A DNA stretch of 63,533 nt from a virus. Positions 2,905 through 37,083 of this stretch are shown one piece after another; within the stretch, counting starts at the first letter, position 1, and every line of letters starts with the position of its first letter. The stretch covers positions 1 to 63,533 of IMG/VR virus record IMGVR_UViG_3300020430_000014. One strand, written 5' to 3'. The translations under genes and the position numbers were made by a program. The notes under the pieces were generated by a model. The model made no database searches and was not told where the DNA came from. It was given only the letters and a program-made list of their open reading frames with translations.

Positions 2905-5396
2905 GATTTTATACGAACGTCCAGATGGTCGGGAACCAGTTCCTCGTCAGAGGTTATGAAGATGGTAAACGCTTCACTACCCGCGAGAAGTGGAACCCGA
3001 CCCTTTTTGTACCATCTCAAAAGAAGACGTTCTATAAAACTCTTAGTGGAGAACAGGTTGAGGCAATCAAACCAGGCACTGTACATGAGTGCCGTGAGTT
3101 CATCAAAAAATATGATGGCGTAGAAGGATTTAAAATCTACGGTAACGAGCGGTTCATCTATCAATATATCTCTGAGAAGTATTCTGAGCAAGAGATCAAG
3201 TTTGACATTGGTAAGATTATGCTATCTACCATTGACATTGAGGTTGCTTCTGAGAATGGATTCCCAGACGTAGAGTCTGCTGCTGAAGAAGTTCTTCTTA
3301 TTACCCTTCAGGATTATGCAACCAAGGAGATCATTACTTGGGGTCAGGGTCCATTCAAACTTAAGCAAGGGAATCATTACTACAAGCAATTCAATAATGA
3401 AGAAGATCTTCTTCATGACTTTATCAGTTGGTGGATTGACAACACTCCCGAAGTTGTCACTGGATGGAATAGCAAACTGTATGATATTCCGTATCTAGTC
3501 CGTCGTATTGATAGGATTCTTGGTGAGAAGTTGATGAAGAGACTCTCTCCGTGGGGTCTTGTAACTGAGCAAGAGGTTTATATTCAAGGCAGAAAGCAAT
3601 TGTCCTATGACATTGGTGGAGTCTCTCAGTTAGATTATCTGGACCTGTATAAGAAGTTTACTTACACAAACCAAGAATCTTACCGACTGGATCATATTGC
3701 AACTGTAGAGTTGGGACAGAAGAAACTAGACCACTCTGAGTTTGATACATTCAAAGACTTCTATACAAACGGTTGGCAAAAGTTTGTAGAATATAACATT
3801 ATTGACGTGGAACTTGTTGACCGATTGGAAGACAAGATGAAGTTGATTGAACTTGCATTGACTATGGCATACGATGCCAAGGTCAATTATGAAGATGTGT
3901 TCTATCAGGTGAGGATGTGGGACACGATCATTTATAACTACTTAAAGGGAAGAGGAATTGTTATTCCTCCTAAAGAGAAGTCCGACAAGAACGAAAAGTA
4001 CGCAGGTGCTTATGTTAAGGAACCGAAACCTGGAAAGTATGATTGGGTTGTGTCTTTTGACCTTAATTCTCTGTACCCTCATCTTATTATGCAATACAAC
4101 ATCTCACCAGAGACGTTACGAGATACTAGACACCCATCGGCTACGGTTGATCGAATCCTTAATGAAGAGATAGACTTTGAGGATTATAAAGATAGTGCGG
4201 TGTGTGCTAACGGGTCCATGTACCGTAAGAATACTCGTGGGTTTTTGCCAGAACTCATGGATAAGATGTATAGTGAGCGAGTGATCTTCAAAAAGAAGAT
4301 GCTCAAAGCAAAGCAAGCATATGAGAAGACACCTACTAAAGATTTGGAGAAGGAAATTGCACGCTGTAACAATATTCAGATGGCTAAGAAGATCGCCCTT
4401 AACTCTGCCTATGGTGCTATTGGCAATCAATATTTTCGTTACTATAAACTTGCTAACGCCGAAGCAATCACCCTATCTGGACAAGTCTCCATCCGCTGGA
4501 TTGAGAACCGAATGAATGCTTATCTAAATAGGATTCTAAAGACGGAAGACAAAGATTATGTTATTGCGTCTGATACTGATTCTATCTACCTACACCTTGG
4601 TCCGCTTGTTGATCGTGTGTTTACTGAGGGATCTGATAATAAAGAAAAGGTAGTTGAGTTCCTTGACAAAGCATGTCAAGATCAAATTGAACCCTTTATT
4701 GATAAGAGTTATCAGCAGTTAGCAGAGTATGTTAACGCTTATGATCAGAAGATGTTCATGAAGCGTGAGAACATTGCTGACCGTGGGATTTGGACGGCTA
4801 AGAAGCGATATATCTTGAATGTATGGAACAGTGAAGGTGTTGCTTATGCTGAACCTAAACTGAAGATCATGGGCATTGAAGCGGTCAAGTCATCAACTCC
4901 TGCCCCTTGTCGAACTATGATTAAGGGTGCTCTAAAACTTATGATGACTGGCACTGAGGAAGATGTGATTGAATTTATTGACAAGAGTAGACAAGAGTTT
5001 AGGCAATTGCCTCCTGAACAGATCTCATTTCCTAGGTCTGTATCCAACGTCAAGAAGTATGAGTGTAGAACTTCCATCTACTCAAAGGGAACACCCATTC
5101 ATGTCAGGGGTGCCCTCCTATTCAACCATCATGTAAAGGACAAAAAACTGACCAATAAATATTCACTCATCAATAATGGTGAGAAGATCAAGTTCTGCTA
5201 TTTGAAGGAACCAAATCCATTACGAGAGAACGTTATCTCGTTTATTCAAGAATTTCCTAAGGAGTTGAACCTTGACAAGTATATTGACTATAACCTACAA
5301 TTCGACAAGAGTTTTGTCGAACCTGTAAAAACCATTCTTGACGCCATCGGATGGAACGTTGAGAAGACTGTAAACCTTGAACTATTTTTTGGATAA
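2901..5396 (+). CDS. 43: DNA polymerase gp43 (family B)
   Basis: Replicative polymerase with 3'-5' proofreading. Visible motifs: Exo I DIE at residues 112-114, motif A DLNSLYPHL with the metal-binding Asp near 387, motif B KKIALNSAYGA, and motif C SDTDSIY with Asp 558 and 560. The order and spacing fit family B. It is 831 residues, somewhat shorter than T4 gp43 (898). The GTG start overlaps the previous stop; the stop overlaps the next ATG (TAATG). No intron, intein or split was seen. Confidence 0.98.
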   Translation: MRFYTNVQMVGNQFLVRGYEDGKRFTTREKWNPTLFVPSQKKTFYKTLSGEQVEAIKPGTVHECREFIKKYDGVEGFKIYGNERFIYQYISEKYSEQEIKFDIGKIMLSTIDIEVASENGFPDVESAAEEVLLITLQDYATKEIITWGQGPFKLKQGNHYYKQFNNEEDLLHDFISWWIDNTPEVVTGWNSKLYDIPYLVRRIDRILGEKLMKRLSPWGLVTEQEVYIQGRKQLSYDIGGVSQLDYLDLYKKFTYTNQESYRLDHIATVELGQKKLDHSEFDTFKDFYTNGWQKFVEYNIIDVELVDRLEDKMKLIELALTMAYDAKVNYEDVFYQVRMWDTIIYNYLKGRGIVIPPKEKSDKNEKYAGAYVKEPKPGKYDWVVSFDLNSLYPHLIMQYNISPETLRDTRHPSATVDRILNEEIDFEDYKDSAVCANGSMYRKNTRGFLPELMDKMYSERVIFKKKMLKAKQAYEKTPTKDLEKEIARCNNIQMAKKIALNSAYGAIGNQYFRYYKLANAEAITLSGQVSIRWIENRMNAYLNRILKTEDKDYVIASDTDSIYLHLGPLVDRVFTEGSDNKEKVVEFLDKACQDQIEPFIDKSYQQLAEYVNAYDQKMFMKRENIADRGIWTAKKRYILNVWNSEGVAYAEPKLKIMGIEAVKSSTPAPCRTMIKGALKLMMTGTEEDVIEFIDKSRQEFRQLPPEQISFPRSVSNVKKYECRTSIYSKGTPIHVRGALLFNHHVKDKKLTNKYSLINNGEKIKFCYLKEPNPLRENVISFIQEFPKELNLDKYIDYNLQFDKSFVEPVKTILDAIGWNVEKTVNLELFFG

Positions 5397-19838: not shown

Positions 19839-20453
19839 ATGAAAAAGTTTTCGCAATTTATTGACGAAGCAAAGTCTCTTGCCTCAATTCAAGGTAAGAG
19901 ACTTGGTTTGGTGCCTGATGGGCATGGGTCTTTTCATGACAAAAAAACTGGTGAATTTATTGCGAAAAACGTTGGCGGTAAATTAAAGTTTTATAACCAA
20001 AACCAAGTTCTTGGTGCAACCGATCCACCACAAAAAAGAACTTCAAACAATCAAAGACCAGTAGCAGCACAAACTTCTAAAATTAAGAAGACAAAAAACA
20101 GTGTAACTACTGAAGTTCCCGAACAACTTACTCGCGAACAAGAGCAAGAACTTAGAGAAAAGTATATTGCTGGTGAGATTTTTTGTGAAGGATCTTTTGT
20201 CCATAACATCAAGACAGACCAGATTGGAAAGATTGTCCGTAGAGGTACAAATCATCTCATCTGTGTAACATCTGAAGATGATATGTTCAAGTCTTGGATT
20301 AGAGATGTTCGTGAATGGACTGAAGTATCGGGGGTTCCTGCCGATCAAAGGTTAGTCGGAACGGATGCTCATAGAGAGTATGCCATGATGATGACGGGCA
20401 CCAAGAAAATTAAGAATTTCATAAATAAATACAAGGCAAAAAAGAAGCACTAG
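19839..20453 (+). CDS. putative packaged internal virion protein with capsid-targeting N-terminus
   Basis: A 204-residue basic protein. Its N-terminus MKKFSQFIDEA has the same spacing as the T4 capsid-targeting sequence MKTYQEFIAEA shared by internal proteins IPI-III and Alt, with F7, I8, E10 and A11 aligned; T4 prohead protease cuts after E10. A second block is GKRLGLVPDGHGSFHDKKTGEF. The C-terminus is Lys-rich (KNFINKYKAKKKH). A late promoter lies upstream. Packaging in the head is inferred, supported by the two other basic proteins that follow. Confidence 0.72.
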   Translation: MKKFSQFIDEAKSLASIQGKRLGLVPDGHGSFHDKKTGEFIAKNVGGKLKFYNQNQVLGATDPPQKRTSNNQRPVAAQTSKIKKTKNSVTTEVPEQLTREQEQELREKYIAGEIFCEGSFVHNIKTDQIGKIVRRGTNHLICVTSEDDMFKSWIRDVREWTEVSGVPADQRLVGTDAHREYAMMMTGTKKIKNFINKYKAKKKH

Positions 20454-20457
20454 AGTA

Positions 20458-21810
20458 ATGGCAAACCTTAAGCATGTTGTCTCTGATCTTCATCAGGTAT
20501 ATCTGGCGGAGATGGAAGCAAAGATTAAACCTCAGTTAGATAAGTCTTCTGCATCTTCCAGCGGATCAGATGGCGGTGAGAAGAAAGATAATTCTGCTGG
20601 TGGTGGCGGGGACAATGTTCAGAAGGCAGCAAGACAACTTGCCTATGACACCAGATATAAAGCAAGAAGAGAAGGTATTCCTCTAGAGAGAGCATTTACT
20701 CAATCTGTTCAAAACTCTAGCGCACCTGCTCCTGTTAAGGATGCGGCAAAGAGTCTTCTTTTTTCAGGCGAGAAGAAGGAGTCTGTTGAGATTGATGGAT
20801 CTATTGAAGAAGCAAGAAAGGGTGATAAAGAAAAGGTTCGTGTTACTCCTAAGAAAGGATATGGCGATACCAAAGGATATGTAAGATTTGCTGATGCTAA
20901 GAAGAAGCATGAACTGAGATCAAATCCCCAGATTCAGTCTGTAACTCCTACGGATCATGGCGATGCTTATGAGGGTGAAGGTGATAAAGGTAAGAAGGAC
21001 GATAAGAAAACGTCTGGCAAACTTGATCCTGTCGGCAAGGAAGACGGTGATGTCAACAACGACGGTAAGAAGGATAAGACCGATAAGTATCTGATGAAGC
21101 GCCGTAAGGCAATTGGTAAGGCAATCTCTAAGACCAAAAAAGAAGAGTTCTCTAACTGGAAGGCAGATCTTGGTATCGAAGAAGAGACCATGGTCGAAGT
21201 TGCTGGAGAAGAGAAGCCAAAAAAGATCACTGGTAAAGGTGTAAAGAACAAGATTGAGATTCATCCTGATCTCAAAGAAGGCATCGGTAAACTCGGTGGC
21301 GAAGTTCTTGAGGTTGAAGAAGTTGAAGTAGATGAGGTCTACAAGGGCAAGCACGGTCAGTCCGATAAAGAGTATGCTGCTTCTCGTTCTCAGGGCGGTA
21401 AAATGATCTCTGGCGATGACAAGAGATCTGGTGCTGAATACACCCATGGACGCAGAGTCAAGGCAGCAAACCCTGGTATGCAACCTGATGTGGGTGGCAA
21501 GACCAAACCCAAGTCCCAAGGTAAAATGGACAAGGGCACCAGGGCAGACCTGATGTATCGCAAGGCAAACCTCAAGAAGGAAGAGACTATTCATGAGGAG
21601 AAGCCTTATGAGAGACTTGATCGCTTGAATAAGGAGAGAATCGCTAAGCAGAAGGCAGCAAAAGATGCTGAGACTGCAAAGAGAGACAAGCGTATTTCTG
21701 ACTTCAAAAAGTTCAGAGAAGGTGAGCGTGCTGCGGGAACTCGTCATGATAAGATTCTTGACAAGTGGCAACAGAAAAAAATTGCTGCTGATAAAGCAAA
21801 AAAGCAGTAG
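20458..21810 (+). CDS. large charged, probably virion-associated protein (0-frame product)
   Basis: A 450-residue, Lys/Glu/Gly-rich, low-complexity protein with no membrane segment. An EF-hand/dockerin-like calcium loop (DGDVNNDGKKDKTDKYL) lies near residues 195-211, followed by RRKAIGKAI. An Ala-rich, basic C-terminus resembles DNA-condensing proteins. Its last codons contain A AAA AAG immediately before the stop, so part of translation probably continues in the -1 frame to 22310 (617 residues in total). It sits directly after the capsid-targeted protein. Confidence 0.72.
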   Translation: MANLKHVVSDLHQVYLAEMEAKIKPQLDKSSASSSGSDGGEKKDNSAGGGGDNVQKAARQLAYDTRYKARREGIPLERAFTQSVQNSSAPAPVKDAAKSLLFSGEKKESVEIDGSIEEARKGDKEKVRVTPKKGYGDTKGYVRFADAKKKHELRSNPQIQSVTPTDHGDAYEGEGDKGKKDDKKTSGKLDPVGKEDGDVNNDGKKDKTDKYLMKRRKAIGKAISKTKKEEFSNWKADLGIEEETMVEVAGEEKPKKITGKGVKNKIEIHPDLKEGIGKLGGEVLEVEEVEVDEVYKGKHGQSDKEYAASRSQGGKMISGDDKRSGAEYTHGRRVKAANPGMQPDVGGKTKPKSQGKMDKGTRADLMYRKANLKKEETIHEEKPYERLDRLNKERIAKQKAAKDAETAKRDKRISDFKKFREGERAAGTRHDKILDKWQQKKIAADKAKKQ

Positions 21811-21840
21811 GCGAGGCAGCACAACCTAGTGCTTCCTCGC
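21798..21840 (+). promoter_or_regulatory. programmed -1 ribosomal frameshift signal
   Basis: The slippery heptamer A AAA AAG (21798-21804), in phase with the upstream frame, is the same heptamer used by E. coli dnaX. A six-base spacer (CAGTAG, containing the 0-frame stop) follows. Then comes a strong hairpin at 21811-21840: GCGAGG/CCTCGC and AGCAC/GTGCT separated by one C-T mismatch, with a six-base loop. All three elements have canonical order and spacing. Confidence 0.85.
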
Positions 21841-22310
21841 TCAGAGCAAAGCAGCAAGACACTGAGCGTCAGCAAATGCAGAATGCGAGAGCTGAGATGG
21901 AGAAATCCAGATCAGCTGCAGGTCAATCTAAGATCAAAGCAAGAAAAGATGCTGAAGATCTTAATGCCAGAATTCGTTCTGTTGCTAGTGAAGAGGCTGG
22001 TTTAGATGAGCGTACTCGTTACGCTAAAGAAACTGGTAAAGACTTCAAGACTGGTAATCCTTCTGAGAAGGGTGGAACCCGTGACGGCAAGAGTGCGTTT
22101 GATAAGGTCTCTCGTGAGATGAGAAAGACTGGTGGCATGATGTCTTCTAGAAAGAATGCCATTCAACCACAAGGTAAGAAGAAGGAAAAGGGTAAGAAGG
22201 GTTATCAAGGTGTAACACCTGTTGATAGAATCAAGAACAAACTTGCCCAAAAGAGAAAGCCTAAACCAGATCCATATGGATATGGTCAAGGTCGCTATCA
22301 GGGTGACTGA
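21804..22310 (+). CDS. -1 frame extension of the 20458 gene
   Basis: After slippage the frame runs open for 168 codons, giving a 617-residue fusion. The junction reads AVGEAAQPSASSLRAK in the -1 frame, with the same Lys/Arg/Gln/Ala-rich composition as both sides. The first internal ATG (21876) has no ribosome-binding site, which argues against separate translation. The C-terminal part is basic (KKKEKGKKGY, NKLAQKRKPKP) and looks DNA- or RNA-binding. It has no recognised domain. Confidence 0.75.
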   Translation, partial: AVGEAAQPSASSLRAKQQDTERQQMQNARAEMEKSRSAAGQSKIKARKDAEDLNARIRSVASEEAGLDERTRYAKETGKDFKTGNPSEKGGTRDGKSAFDKVSREMRKTGGMMSSRKNAIQPQGKKKEKGKKGYQGVTPVDRIKNKLAQKRKPKPDPYGYGQGRYQGD

Positions 22311-32657: not shown

Positions 32658-32731
<74 letters not shown>

Positions 32732-32733
32732 CT

Positions 32734-32806
32734 GGGGAATTAGCTCATTTGGTAGAGCGCCTGCTTTGCAAGCAGGAGGCGAGCGGTTCGATCCCGCTAT
32801 TCTCCA
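32734..32806 (+). tRNA. tRNA-Ala (TGC)
   Basis: Cloverleaf of 73 bases: acceptor GGGGAAT/ATTCTCC, anticodon stem CCTGC/GCAGG with anticodon TGC at 32767-32769, and T-arm with GTTCGATCC. It is two bases after tRNA-Arg and three bases before the next start codon. Confidence 0.95.
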
Positions 32807-32808
32807 TT

Positions 32809-33462
32809 ATGTACTACTTCCCAGATATTGATTCCATTTACTCAAGTCTTATGGGTGGATTTTTTACAAAGGATGAGATAAACCCTAATCTTAATTTACT
32901 CAATATCAACTACGAAAAATGTAGGGATGAGTATGAATCTGCTAGGCATCGACTAGTATTCAATGAGGGTAAAGAAGCATACCAAGATTGCAAGATTGCA
33001 ACACTGTTTGGTAGGTATCATCCTTCTATGGATCTTGCAGAACTCGAAAGGGTTTATGATCAGGGTGTTTATGTTGATCCAGAGCGGGAGATCTTCTACA
33101 CGCAGAATACAGTGTACGTGCCAACTCTGTTTAATCTCTGCTTAGAAGTGGGTATTCGCCAACGATGTTCAATTAATCTTCTGGAACCTGGTAAAGTAAT
33201 TGATTGGCATACTGACCTCGATCCTCAGGGAGACGATGACCTTATTATCAGAGGACTGTGGGGTCTCAGTGTCAACCCTCAAAATCAAGAAACCTGTCAA
33301 CTTCTAGTTGATAGTAAGGAAGGAGTTCAAAACCAAATATTGTCGAACAATAGTATGCACTTCTTCTGGGGAAGGACCAAGCATCATGTGTTCAATAATT
33401 TAACTACTCCTAGAGCATGCCTATCATTTGGTAATGTTGTTCCTCAGGAAAGAATACTCTAA
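32809..33462 (+). CDS. 2OG-Fe(II) oxygenase-like (Asp/Asn beta-hydroxylase-type)
   Basis: A 217-residue protein with an HxD motif in VIDWHTDLDPQGDDD, a strand GLWGLSV, and a distal His/Arg segment FFWGRTKHHVFNNLTTPRACLSFG. It resembles aspartyl/asparaginyl hydroxylases. Its ATG lies three bases beyond tRNA-Ala, an unusually close join. Substrate unknown. Confidence 0.75.
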   Translation: MYYFPDIDSIYSSLMGGFFTKDEINPNLNLLNINYEKCRDEYESARHRLVFNEGKEAYQDCKIATLFGRYHPSMDLAELERVYDQGVYVDPEREIFYTQNTVYVPTLFNLCLEVGIRQRCSINLLEPGKVIDWHTDLDPQGDDDLIIRGLWGLSVNPQNQETCQLLVDSKEGVQNQILSNNSMHFFWGRTKHHVFNNLTTPRACLSFGNVVPQERIL

Positions 33463-33486
33463 ATAGTAAAAAAGTAAAAGGTGTAT

Positions 33487-33699
33487 ATGAGACAGTCACT
33501 AGTATTAGCGGCATGTTTAGCACCACTTGGATTAATTTTTATCATAATGAAGCTTGCTGTTTGGGTGTCTGCTGTAAAATCTGAATCTTCTTATGTCGGA
33601 AAAGAACCCTTTAGAAAACGAGGACCGTATGTGGCAGACGCATATGCAGACGTTGACGAGGAGGAAGAGGAGTATGGAGATCGCACAGATTATCGATAA
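33487..33699 (+). CDS. small membrane protein with acidic tail
   Basis: A 70-residue protein: N-terminal membrane helix (LVLAACLAPLGLIFIIMKLAVW) and an acidic C-terminus (DVDEEEEEYGD). A GTG at 33481 is an alternative start. It overlaps the next gene by 26 bases. Function unknown. Confidence 0.6.
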   Translation: MRQSLVLAACLAPLGLIFIIMKLAVWVSAVKSESSYVGKEPFRKRGPYVADAYADVDEEEEEYGDRTDYR

Positions 33700-33820
33700 T
33701 GCTTTAGAAGAGTACTACTCAGAAAAGGGTCTTCCTGTCCCTAATTGGAAGTGTAAGAAGGATCCCGACTGGTGGATTGACTATCTAAAGGAATTGGGAA
33801 TTGACAAGGATAATCCCTAG
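33674..33820 (+). CDS. small protein, unknown
   Basis: A 48-residue protein (MEIAQIIDNALEEYYSEKGLP...). The ATG at 33674 was chosen because GAGGAAGAGGAG sits directly upstream; a longer frame to 33593 overlaps the neighbour more. Its end carries the consensus promoter described next. Confidence 0.6.
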   Translation: MEIAQIIDNALEEYYSEKGLPVPNWKCKKDPDWWIDYLKELGIDKDNP

Positions 33821-33829
33821 TGGTATAAT
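33801..33829 (+). promoter_or_regulatory. perfect consensus sigma70 promoter
   Basis: TTGACA, 17 bases, TATAAT with no mismatch. It lies in the 3' end of the 33674 gene and points into a 180-base stretch with no frame, then tRNA-Val. Confidence 0.85.
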
Positions 33830-33835
33830 TTATCC

Positions 33836-34012
33836 AGAGAGGACTTGAGACGTTCCGACCAAAGGTGCCAAGCGGCGCGGATATACCGTTGCCCTGTAGT
33901 TTGGAATCAACCCCCTTTGGATGTTAGCGGTGGTACTGCTTCCTACTCCGTTACAAACTGTCAGTATTCTGGGTGTAGCGCCCACATAGCATACGGATAA
34001 GTGTAATGTTAC
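33836..34012 (+). ncRNA. candidate structured noncoding RNA upstream of tRNA-Val
   Basis: No reading frame of note occupies these 177 bases, yet a perfect promoter starts them. CCAAAGG (33859-33865) pairs exactly with CCTTTGG (33914-33920), enclosing GC-rich elements with local stems such as CGG/CCG; another small stem is TGGGT/GCCCA near 33970-33985. It could be a separate small RNA, or a long tRNA leader. It is not itself a tRNA: no T-loop sequence is present. Confidence 0.5.
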
Positions 34013-34084
34013 GCTTGATTAGCTCAGCGGTAGAGCATCTCGTTTACACCGAGGCGGTCGGCGGTTCGATCCCGTCATCAAGCA
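34013..34084 (+). tRNA. tRNA-Val (TAC)
   Basis: Cloverleaf of 72 bases: acceptor GCTTGAT/ATCAAGC, D-arm GCTC...GAGC, anticodon TAC at 34045-34047 in the loop TTTACAC, and T-loop GTTCGATCC. No encoded CCA. Confidence 0.95.
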
Positions 34085-34101
34085 TTCTAAGTTACCAGGT
34101 T

Positions 34102-34347
34102 ATGTTAGTAAGATGTAAAGAGTGCAACAGAGAGTTGCATAGTACCAATAAAGTGCAGTGTTGTGGATGTCCAAACATGATGAAAGTCGTGGATGACACT
34201 GTAGGTGCTATGGACTTATCCCAAGTTGTTATTGTGGAGGGAGTTGCAGACAATAAAAAATCAGATACTCTCTCAAGAGAAGATAGAGCTTGGCAAGAGA
34301 ACCGACGCAAACGTAAGGTTCGTAGGTTAGATTTTGAAATTAAGTAA
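34102..34347 (+). CDS. small zinc-ribbon-like protein
   Basis: An 81-residue protein with a Cys pattern CKEC ... CCGC near residues 5-28, as in zinc ribbons, and a basic tail (RRKRKVRRLDFEIK). The real start is the ATG at 34102, after tRNA-Val. It may bind nucleic acid; target unknown. Confidence 0.65.
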   Translation: MLVRCKECNRELHSTNKVQCCGCPNMMKVVDDTVGAMDLSQVVIVEGVADNKKSDTLSREDRAWQENRRKRKVRRLDFEIK

Positions 34348-34408
34348 TTAATTTAATAATTTTTACTGATTGTTGCCAAACTTAGTATAGAATTGAACAC
34401 ATAACTTG

Positions 34409-34437
34409 TTGACATAGTACAATTCCATATATAGAAT
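34409..34437 (+). promoter_or_regulatory. early promoter
   Basis: TTGACA, 17 bases, TAGAAT in the 118-base gap before 34466. It probably drives the small genes 34466-35349. Confidence 0.7.
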
Positions 34438-34465
34438 TTATAAGTAAACGTAGCACTGTGCCTTT

Positions 34466-34717
34466 ATGGATCCATCTACTTCATATTCAGCATCTCTTGT
34501 TGGAGTTTATACACTCCTGGTTATCGTTCTGTTAATGATTGCCTATAGTGGAGTAGAGGGAACTCTGAGAGTATTTGCATATTTAGATTTAACTTTTAGA
34601 TATGCAATAATTAGATCTCGTATGTTCTTCATTGAACGTAAATTGAGGAAAAGATTACTCAAGGATACGGAAGTCTACACTAAACTCATCAAGGAGATTC
34701 AAGATGACCAACGATAG
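34466..34717 (+). CDS. small membrane protein
   Basis: An 83-residue protein with a hydrophobic helix (SLVGVYTLLVIVLLMIAYSG, residues about 9-29) and a basic, helical C-terminus (FFIERKLRKRLLKD). Probably an early inner-membrane protein. Function unknown. Confidence 0.62.
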   Translation: MDPSTSYSASLVGVYTLLVIVLLMIAYSGVEGTLRVFAYLDLTFRYAIIRSRMFFIERKLRKRLLKDTEVYTKLIKEIQDDQR

Positions 34718-34964
34718 GGAATTCTCCGACCTCAAACTTGAGAGGAAGGAATGTCCTAAATGTGGTGCAATTTGGATGAATGGTAATCACACCTGGGCAA
34801 CAGGTGCAAAAGGAAATGAAAGAGACCTTGCAGGATTGGTCTGTAACAAGTTAGGGGATAGTCGTTGTATAAATCCCCAAAGAGGATTTGAGGGTGGAGA
34901 TACTTGGGAAAAACGCTTAGACGATTTATCAAAAATGAGTGATGAGAAAGATGTCAATTTTTAA
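34704..34964 (+). CDS. small Cys-containing protein
   Basis: An 86-residue protein with CPKCGAIW, an HTWATG segment and later Cys (VCNKLGDSRC), which may hold a zinc ion. It overlaps both neighbours by 14 bases. No function recognised. Confidence 0.6.
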   Translation: MTNDREFSDLKLERKECPKCGAIWMNGNHTWATGAKGNERDLAGLVCNKLGDSRCINPQRGFEGGDTWEKRLDDLSKMSDEKDVNF

Positions 34965-35166
34965 AAAACCACCACCGCCAGCACATCATCCTACCAAACA
35001 AGAAGTTCAGGAGATGATAGACGATGCAATACGCCAACATAATCGTAACGCTGGAATTATCAGTATGTTTGTTGGTTTTTTTGTTCTTGCACTTTTTAGT
35101 GAGGGTCTTCTTAGACTCATTGGAGTAGTACCTCCATTATTCCCCTGGCTCAAGATCACTTTATAG
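34951..35166 (+). CDS. small C-terminally anchored membrane protein
   Basis: A 71-residue protein: Pro-rich start (FKKPPPPAHH), an acidic helix (VQEMIDDAIRQH) and a hydrophobic end (IISMFVGFFVLALFSEGLL). The ATG at 34951 is preferred to one at 34939 because it follows GAGAAAG. Function unknown. Confidence 0.6.
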   Translation: MSIFKKPPPPAHHPTKQEVQEMIDDAIRQHNRNAGIISMFVGFFVLALFSEGLLRLIGVVPPLFPWLKITL

Positions 35167-35181
35167 ACAAAAAAGTAGAAA

Positions 35182-35349
35182 ATGAATCCAAACGAGAAGA
35201 GAGAATTTTATAAAGGACTAAGAGAGCGTATCAATCAACTTAGAATGGGGCATTTGTTTGAAGAACCTTGCCCCTTGTATGAACCAGAATGGGAAGAGGA
35301 TCATGCGTGGGACTGTAGATTGACTTACGACCACGACGAAGAAGACTAA
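35182..35349 (+). CDS. small acidic protein, unknown
   Basis: A 55-residue protein (MNPNEKREFYKGLRERINQL...) with two Cys and an acidic tail. It ends just before the tRNA-Pro promoter. Its coding nature rests on spacing and composition only. Confidence 0.55.
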   Translation: MNPNEKREFYKGLRERINQLRMGHLFEEPCPLYEPEWEEDHAWDCRLTYDHDEED

Positions 35350-35353
35350 ATAA

Positions 35354-35382
35354 TTGACAAAATTAGGTTGATTCGATAGAAT
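35354..35382 (+). promoter_or_regulatory. early promoter for tRNA-Pro
   Basis: TTGACA, 17 bases, TAGAAT, ten bases before the tRNA-Pro gene. Confidence 0.75.
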
Positions 35383-35391
35383 GTGCAATGT

Positions 35392-35465
35392 CGGGATGTA
35401 GCGCAGTTTGGTAGCGCATTCGCTTTGGGAGCGAAGGGCCGCAGGTTCAAATCCTGTCATCCCGA
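35392..35465 (+). tRNA. tRNA-Pro (TGG)
   Basis: Cloverleaf of 74 bases: acceptor CGGGATG/CATCCCG (first base C as usual for tRNA-Pro), anticodon stem TTCGC/GCGAA with anticodon TGG at 35426-35428, and T-loop GTTCAAATC. Confidence 0.95.
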
Positions 35466-35488
35466 TTCCATATAATTTTTTTAACAGC

Positions 35489-36121
35489 ATGTACGTAAGT
35501 AAATCTATAAATCAAACTGAAGAACCTGTTGTTCAAGGAACACATAGAATCGCTCAAAACCCTCTTGTTTACTATAGAGAAGTAATTCCTGAAAAAATTG
35601 TCAATGTGATGGCAGAAGAACTCACTGAAATGGAGGAGTTCGGTTCAACTAGATGGCATGACGCTGAAGTAGGTGGTGAAGCATCGGGTAGATTAGATAC
35701 TTCTGTCAGAAATTCAAAGTTGACCTGGTGGTATGAAGAACACTGGGCATGTAGTATTATCTCTCATTACATTGGTCTTGCTAATCGTAAGTATTGGGAA
35801 TATGACTTAAATGTTCTTGAAAGTATTCAAGTATCTTTGTATGGGAAGAGTGGTCACTATGGTTGGCACAGTGATTATGGAACTTCTGAAGATGGAAAGT
35901 TTACTAGAAAGTTAAGTGCTAGTGTGCTAATTACTGACCCTACAGAATACATGGGCGGTGACTTAGAATTTATTGATTATCATGGGAATGTTGTAAAGGC
36001 ACCCAAAGAAAAAGGATCTGTTATTGTTTTTGATTCTAGAATTCCTCATAGAGTTACTCCAGTAACACATGGAAAAAGAATCTCTCTCGTAACCTGGATG
36101 TACGGACCAAAATTAAGATGA
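35489..36121 (+). CDS. 2OG-Fe(II) oxygenase (PKHD/prolyl-hydroxylase-type)
   Basis: A 210-residue protein with HxD in YGWHSDYGTSEDG, then KLSASVLITDP, YMGGDLEF, and the distal KGSVIVFDSRIPHRVTPVTHGKRISLVTW with His and Arg. This is the clearest prolyl-4-hydroxylase-type oxygenase of the window. It starts after tRNA-Pro and overlaps the next oxygenase by four bases (ATGA). Confidence 0.87.
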   Translation: MYVSKSINQTEEPVVQGTHRIAQNPLVYYREVIPEKIVNVMAEELTEMEEFGSTRWHDAEVGGEASGRLDTSVRNSKLTWWYEEHWACSIISHYIGLANRKYWEYDLNVLESIQVSLYGKSGHYGWHSDYGTSEDGKFTRKLSASVLITDPTEYMGGDLEFIDYHGNVVKAPKEKGSVIVFDSRIPHRVTPVTHGKRISLVTWMYGPKLR

Positions 36122-36768
36122 GTATTACCAATCCTTGGCCAAGATTTACAAAGGAAGGATTTAAAAAAGAAAGGATCCCTGATGATCTTTACTTTGATAT
36201 GATGCTTGAATATAATAAGGCAAGATTTACGGACATACAACAAGATCCTTATTTTGAGCCACATTATGATCAGGTAGTTTCTGGTGGTGCAATAGCAATG
36301 CTGGACACTGATGAACCATTCTACCTAAGAGCAAATATTTCGGATCAAGCATTTGATCGTTGGGCAAAAAAACTTCAACCTCTTATGGAAAAGTGGTGTG
36401 GAGAAAAACTTAATTTTATTCAAGGGTATGGGATAAGATCTTATCACAAAGATTCAATGCTATGTGTACATAGAGATGAGATATCAACACATATTATTAG
36501 TCTCATTGTTCATGTGGATGAACATCCAGAAGTAAAGTGGCCTTTAGAGTTCATCGATCATGATGGAAAACTTCATAAAGTTACTTTTGATAAAGGAGAC
36601 ATGTTAATGTATGAAAGTCTCTGTGTTCATGCAAGAGAGACTCCATTTACTGGTGAGTATTATAGAAATATGTACTTCCATTGGTGCCCAGTAGACTGGG
36701 ATCCAACTCCATATCAAAACAACTGGGTAAGGTATCGTAGTATTCAGGAGGCATTAAATGAAGATTGA
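36118..36768 (+). CDS. 2OG-Fe(II) oxygenase-like protein
   Basis: A 216-residue protein with HxD in CVHRDEISTHIISLIVHVDE, a WPLEFIDHDGKLH strand and the distal KGDMLMYESLCVHARETPF. The partner gene upstream is of the same broad fold, so the two may act on related substrates. It overlaps the next gene by 11 bases. Confidence 0.8.
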   Translation: MSITNPWPRFTKEGFKKERIPDDLYFDMMLEYNKARFTDIQQDPYFEPHYDQVVSGGAIAMLDTDEPFYLRANISDQAFDRWAKKLQPLMEKWCGEKLNFIQGYGIRSYHKDSMLCVHRDEISTHIISLIVHVDEHPEVKWPLEFIDHDGKLHKVTFDKGDMLMYESLCVHARETPFTGEYYRNMYFHWCPVDWDPTPYQNNWVRYRSIQEALNED

Positions 36769-36934
36769 AATGTTTACTGTGAAAGAGTGGCAAGATAATT
36801 GGGAAACTCTTTTTGAAAGAGTGGAGAACGGGGAGACTATAGGTGTTGTCGCTGAGGACGGTCAGACAGCTGTCATGACCCCAGCGGATGATGAACTCAT
36901 ACGCATGTATACTGAACACAATGAGGCACCTTAA
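36758..36934 (+). CDS. Phd/YefM-like antitoxin-type small protein
   Basis: A 58-residue protein: MKIEMFTVKEWQDNWETLFERVENGETIGVV...DGQTAVMTP. This strand-helix-strand pattern (VENGE..., then G.x.AVM.P) resembles Phd/YefM antitoxins. No toxin gene is adjacent; its stop codon touches the tRNA-Ile gene. It could neutralise a host toxin, or serve as a DNA-binding repressor. Confidence 0.55.
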   Translation: MKIEMFTVKEWQDNWETLFERVENGETIGVVAEDGQTAVMTPADDELIRMYTEHNEAP

Positions 36935-37006
36935 GGGACTGTCGCATATTGGTTAATGCGCTCTGCTTATAACGGAGTCAATCGGGTTCAATTCCCGACA
37001 GTCCTA
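36935..37006 (+). tRNA. tRNA-Ile (TAT)
   Basis: Cloverleaf of 72 bases: acceptor GGGACTG/CAGTCCT with a G-T first pair, D-arm GCAT...ATGC, anticodon stem CTCTG/CGGAG with anticodon TAT at 36968-36970, T-arm TCGGG/CCCGA. It begins directly after a stop codon. UAU-anticodon tRNA-Ile is unusual in bacteria, where AUA is normally read by a modified CAU tRNA. Confidence 0.88.
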
Positions 37007-37009
37007 CCA

Positions 37010-37082
37010 GGGGGATTAGCAATCTGGTGAATGCAGCGAACTCATAATTCGCCTAAGGCGAGTTCGATCCTCGCATCCCCCA
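37010..37082 (+). tRNA. tRNA with CAT anticodon (Met, or Ile2)
   Basis: Cloverleaf of 73 bases: acceptor GGGGGAT/ATCCCCC, anticodon stem GCGAA/TTCGC with anticodon CAT at 37043-37045, and T-arm GCGAG/CTCGC with loop TTCGATC. The sequence does not tell whether it is elongator Met or a lysidine-modified Ile2. It lies four bases after tRNA-Ile(TAT). Confidence 0.88.
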
Positions 37083-37083
37083 C

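Follow-up and report, generated by a model that had tools for sequence, protein, structure and literature searches.

The gp186-like locus and its slippery site

The window, i.e. the whole 63,533-nucleotide stretch of viral DNA analysed here (IMG/VR record IMGVR_UViG_3300020430_000014), has a gene neighbourhood of the T4-like cyanomyovirus (Kyanoviridae) type, with the order partial cytidylyltransferase-like gene, gp186-like gene, GC424- and GC198-type small genes, primase, nrdA and nrdB. On the basis of protein similarity and gene position, the gene under study is assigned to the gp186-like (T4-GC 1222/1139) cyanomyovirus genes, its homologues being S-SM2 gp186 (T4-GC 1222) and GC1139-type genes. 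The homologue in phage S-SCSM1 (QFG06349.2), a single ORF of 520 aa, is annotated as 'virion protein', and this homology supports the view of the initial annotation that the gene is of virion type, its product being a probable particle protein. For S-SCSM1, 45 phage proteins are reported as identified in its virions by mass spectrometry (PMC9602691). The cytidylyltransferase/NMNAT-like gene upstream (19839-20453) encodes 204 aa, with the best match covering profile positions 212-304 of 373, and its homologues in S-SM2 and S-SCSM1 are of about 408 aa; it is possibly split or truncated in this lineage. Elsewhere in the window, six tRNA genes (Arg, Ala, Val, Pro, Ile and Met, with none for Lys) lie within 4.4 kb (32658-37083).

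The ORF at 20458-21810 ends with GCA AAA AAG CAG TAG, and the following features are arranged around this end.

20458..21810, + strand: zero-frame ORF of 450 aa, gp186-like (T4-GC 1222 type) by homology and synteny, predicted N-terminal part of the long product
21798..21804, + strand: in-phase slippery heptamer A_AAA_AAG, shared by every one of the 11 type I contigs
21804..21875, + strand: stretch lacking a start codon, AVGEAAQPSASSLRAKQQDTERQQ, predicted to be read in the -1 frame; among close relatives its variable columns are all -1-frame third positions
21804..22310, + strand: -1 frame of 168 codons plus stop, with the conserved C-terminal domain of the family
21805..21810, + strand: six-nt spacer CAGTAG including the zero-frame stop TAG, kept in length and variable in sequence (TAAATA, GACCTA)
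21811..21840, + strand: putative stimulatory hairpin GCGAGG-C-AGCAC-AACCTA-GTGCT-T-CCTCGC, supported by fold and covariation
21876..21878, + strand: first -1-frame ATG, with no Shine-Dalgarno-like sequence upstream

All elements described in the initial annotation (in-phase heptamer, six-nt spacer with the stop, hairpin at 21811-21840) are present, as are the -1 frame open for 168 codons and the ATG at 21876 as its first start, which lacks a ribosome-binding site inasmuch as no Shine-Dalgarno-like sequence precedes it in the window. The A_AAA_AAG at 21798 conforms to X_XXY_YYZ in phase with the upstream frame, and the hairpin begins 6 nt past it, within the distance of about 5-9 nt downstream expected of a stimulatory structure. 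Its 11 bp are divided into 6 + 5 bp flanking one C-U mismatch, with a 6-nt loop and a possible closing G-U, and its folding energy is -20.6 kcal/mol (z -4.8; 0 of 200 shuffles equally stable). A transcription terminator was ruled out, as no T-run follows the hairpin, and no Rfam families were found in the 20-23 kb part of the window. By eye, no Shine-Dalgarno-like stimulator is present about 10 nt upstream of the heptamer, either in the window or at the other type I sites. The window contains seven in-phase occurrences of A_AAA_AAG in plus-strand ORFs with 100 codons or more; solely that at 21798 is followed by a -1 frame open for more than 13 codons, and the 40 nt downstream fold with -20.6 kcal/mol there versus -0.4 to -7.7 kcal/mol at the other six. 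The expected shifted product amounts to 449 + 168 = 617 aa, so that the two lengths proposed initially, 450 and 617 residues, agree with the zero frame and the joined frames. GCGAAGAAG designates an altered form of the slippery heptamer A_AAA_AAG.

Conservation within the protein family is highest in a domain of about 100 residues, DERTRYAKETGKD..TGKPSEKGGT...RKTGG.MSSR.KAIQPQGKKK...TPVDKI, which in the window is found in the -1 frame only, and single-frame relatives of the gp186-like protein always carry the C-terminal extension. Neither the zero-frame nor the -1-frame part has a Pfam match, the PHROGs matches are to families of unknown function, and a PDB profile search with the C-terminal domain gave nothing significant. 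AlphaFold2 predicts a long helix plus weakly defined parts for the -1 domain (pTM 0.29). Matches to phrog_1418 occur both in the C-terminal part of the short product (20458-21810) and in the -1-frame domain (21804-22310), suggesting that a terminal module has been duplicated or shuffled.

Conservation of the cassette and selection in the -1 frame

The same cassette, designated type I, is shared by 11 IMG/VR contigs with protein identities as low as 70%; some contigs of this set are close relatives of one another, and no type I cassette was found in the cultured-phage collection. Seven of these contigs (L002-L008; identity to the -1 domain, start included, of 70% or more) were retrieved by a -1-frame protein search in which the heptamer was not a criterion, and all seven keep the heptamer, spacer length, early stop and hairpin as well as the zero/-1 frame relation of the window. 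Three more (L113, L115 and L120) came from a pattern scan for A_AAA_AAG followed by a GCGAGG/CCTCGC stem and hence share heptamer and outer stem by construction; they represent the same gene with the same layout and 6-nt spacer. Conservation in independent relatives is thus observed in the 11 type I contigs and additionally in the sister types described below. Within type I the spacer reads CAGTAG, TAAATA or GACCTA and is always of 6 nt, and the zero-frame stop lies 0, 1 or 5 codons past the heptamer, therefore the short product is also kept. Such retention bears on the explanation that a sequencing or assembly indel, or a recent breakage, disrupted what is truly one continuous frame. The alignment of homologous loci called for in the initial annotation did reveal single-frame homologues among more distant relatives, the majority of which have one frame, and a comparison of S-ShM2 with S-RIM14 illustrates that such an indel can arise in a gp186-like gene. 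However, the same frame relation in 11 contigs to 70% identity, accompanied by the early stop and a covarying hairpin, leaves this explanation a practically negligible probability, and a sequencing error in the window is ruled out by the relatives with the same cassette (L002-L008).

In the hairpin, the outer stem is constant across type I, as is the C-U mismatch that separates it from the inner stem. The inner stem is found as AGCAC/GUGCU, GGCAC/GUGCU, AGUGG/CCACU and GGUAG/CUAUC, such that all five pairs vary, all five remain standard pairs, and changes on both sides are seen at no fewer than three. These pairs were tabulated directly from the sequences, because the MAFFT alignment of the cassette misplaces the inner 3' arm. 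The run AAAAAA is also invariant in the cassette, as would be the case if RNA polymerase added one A in the A6 run and some mRNAs thereby carried the long frame without any ribosomal slip, an event with an identical protein outcome. Nevertheless, six A residues are short for efficient transcriptional slippage in bacteria, and polymerase slippage leaves unexplained the phase of the heptamer, the conserved 6-nt spacer and the covarying hairpin, while Shine-Dalgarno-like elements upstream of the type II and III sites are a signature of ribosomes. Transcriptional slippage is hence considered very unlikely.

Evidence for translation comes from the 72 nt between the heptamer and the first -1 ATG. 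Between the window and L003, L005 and L006 there are 3-6 changes that are synonymous in the -1 frame and 0 that are nonsynonymous, whereas in the other two frames none of these changes is synonymous; across the seven closest contigs, 8/8 variable columns of the start-less stretch are -1-frame third positions. Coding selection in the -1 frame is thus seen where no start codon could open that frame. Since change there is synonymous only in the -1 frame despite the lack of a start codon, the pattern of substitution indicates that 21804-21875 is translated in the -1 frame. This bears directly on the proposal of two separate genes, with the downstream ORF independently translated by reinitiation at ATG 21876 or from another start. 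Such an organization has precedents in S-SM2, L034 and L041, which have two ORFs with overlapping starts, and in the GenBank annotation of S-BM3 as two CDS. In the window, however, no ATG, GTG or TTG occurs in the -1 frame from the stop to 21876, no Shine-Dalgarno-like sequence is present, and the -1 frame ahead of ATG 21876 changes only synonymously among close relatives and matches an in-frame relative of L008. Reinitiation at ATG 21876 is rejected because the -1-frame selection starts upstream of it, and independent translation of two genes is regarded as extremely unlikely. The peptide AVGEAAQPSASSLR, put forward in the initial annotation for mass spectrometry as spanning the junction, lies wholly within the -1 frame and so does not span it; it is still diagnostic because it is upstream of any -1 start codon.

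A natural in-frame control is provided by a single-ORF relative. L175 reads SAKK-INAEAVDSTSTLSAKQQDTER in one frame from AAA AAG ATT AAT, or in the fuller reading ...SAKK-INAEAVDSTSTLSAKQQDTERVQAQNAR via GCA AAA AAG ATT AAT, and no hairpin is present at the matching site. L008 yields ...NAKK-VNSEAVDPTSSLSAKQQDTERVQAQNAR only through a -1 shift. As deduced from these sequences, the predicted trans-frame peptide is a protein that is also made in frame in nature. Because L175 encodes a near-identical peptide without a hairpin, the hairpin is not forced by the protein sequence, and its origin as a by-product of that sequence is ruled out.

Proposed mechanism and relation to known systems

Cassette anatomy, conservation, covariation, -1-frame selection and natural in-frame equivalents form the basis on which the locus is read, as initially proposed, as a site of programmed -1 frameshifting. 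There is high confidence that a hairpin-stimulated programmed -1 ribosomal frameshift yields the 450-aa and 617-aa proteins, whose ratio probably sets the number of subunits with a C-terminal domain. Ribosomes at GCA_AAA_AAG would meet, about 6 nt ahead, a hairpin resisting unwinding, and some of them would slip, both Lys-tRNAs re-pairing one base upstream (AAA-AAG to AAA-AAA), so that translation would proceed in the -1 frame to give the 617-aa protein with the conserved C-terminal domain. Unshifted ribosomes would terminate at TAG and release the 450-aa protein without this domain. The short/long ratio would probably meter virion-associated subunits bearing the C-terminal helix and basic tail. 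We infer in vivo frameshifting, its efficiency and its stoichiometric role, the latter being suggested by homology and by analogy with other phage proteins that come in a short and an extended version.

Mechanistically, this is an ordinary, textbook frameshift of the dnaX or lambda G-GT kind. E. coli dnaX shares, as pointed out in the initial annotation, the heptamer A_AAA_AAG (PMC5009743), and likewise a short spacer, a hairpin and two products per gene; types IIa, IIb and III additionally resemble it in an AGGAG-like element about 8-11 nt upstream. In contrast to dnaX, the window has no such upstream Shine-Dalgarno-like element, the shifted product is the longer rather than the shorter one, and the gene is of phage particle type rather than for a polymerase clamp loader. 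The lambda G/GT tail chaperone is similar in that -1 shifting extends some copies of a phage morphogenesis protein by a C-terminal domain, but gpG and gpGT are absent from mature virions (PMC5009743), whereas the homologue here is annotated as a virion protein. The present locus also differs from lambda G/GT in that it does not encode a tail chaperone beside a tape-measure gene, in its location between a cytidylyltransferase-like gene and primase/nrdA, in its heptamer and in natural single-frame fusions among its relatives. Capsid or tail proteins with frameshift-made C-terminal extensions are known from T7 (10A/10B) and PSA. The major head protein of phage A2 is attributed such an extension in work cited in PMC10885494. 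Common to these and the present case is a probable virion protein whose short and extended forms are set by -1 frameshifting, although the gp186-like protein is unrelated to them, is highly modular and has single-frame relatives always with the extension.

The initial annotation knew of no described frameshift at this gene in T4-like cyanophages, and none at a gp186-like gene or in cyanomyoviruses was found in a non-exhaustive search of the open literature. The location, the recurrence in one gene family and the proposed metering of a C-terminal domain are new, and the recurrence within one gene family is the surprising part. If the reading is true, a long particle protein is missing from the annotated genomes of abundant ocean phages, S-BM3 having two hypothetical proteins in its place; frameshifted and fused natural variants of one protein would render both the evolution of the cassette and a metered C-terminal extension testable in cultured phage.

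Sister cassettes and recurrence in the gene family

In 9 further contigs of the gp186-like family, A_AAA_AAG is located at different module borders and followed by different stems, and a Shine-Dalgarno-like element (AGGAG-like, about 8-11 nt) precedes the heptamer in each of types IIa, IIb and III. Type IIa (L039, L044 and the cultured Synechococcus phage S-BM3, L140, OQ319121) has the layout AAGGAG-8 nt-A_AAA_AAG-TAG with a long two-part stem; type IIb (L219, L254) has a stem of -33 kcal/mol; and type III (L013, L015, L258, L259) has AGGAG-11 nt-A_AAA_AAG and a 10-bp stem, one pair of which is U-G in L013 and C-G in L015. The cassette of S-BM3 is located at 3527-3595, and the second of its two separate hypothetical CDS in GenBank starts at an ATG inside the stem-loop. 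The trans-frame sequence of type III matches in-frame relatives as EKLNLKK-DSMGSVIKDFYKSDAPQF and, as EKLNLKK-DSMGSVIKDFYKSDAPQFKGRSKEKRREMA, the in-frame L195, L197, L198 and L221. Independent evidence is weaker for types II and III than for type I, because there are fewer contigs and two of them (L254 and L259) were retrieved by exact-pattern scans. L008 has a GTG in the hairpin, and type III an ATG in the spacer, at which internal initiation may occur.

In most of the other family members found, the frame is continuous, so frameshifting is not essential to the family; in S-SM2, L034 and L041 there are two ORFs whose starts overlap in the ordinary way. In a C-terminal domain tree (107 columns, probably recombining), the frameshift members are scattered, with 9 changes, 6 of them forced by starred branches; this scatter agrees with recurrent gain and loss or with shuffling of modules, between which 107 columns cannot decide. 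There is an even chance that -1 cassettes sharing one heptamer but differing in their stems have been gained repeatedly at the module borders of a single mosaic virion gene family of marine cyanomyoviruses; frameshifting would then be a standing means of joining modules and metering the C-terminal domain, and relatives would alternate between a frameshifted, a fused and a split form. At about locus 1900, a 2-nt difference with no slippery site, probably an indel or sequencing error, divides the gp186-like gene of S-ShM2 (L133) into two annotated CDS, versus one ORF of 687 aa in S-RIM14 (L139).
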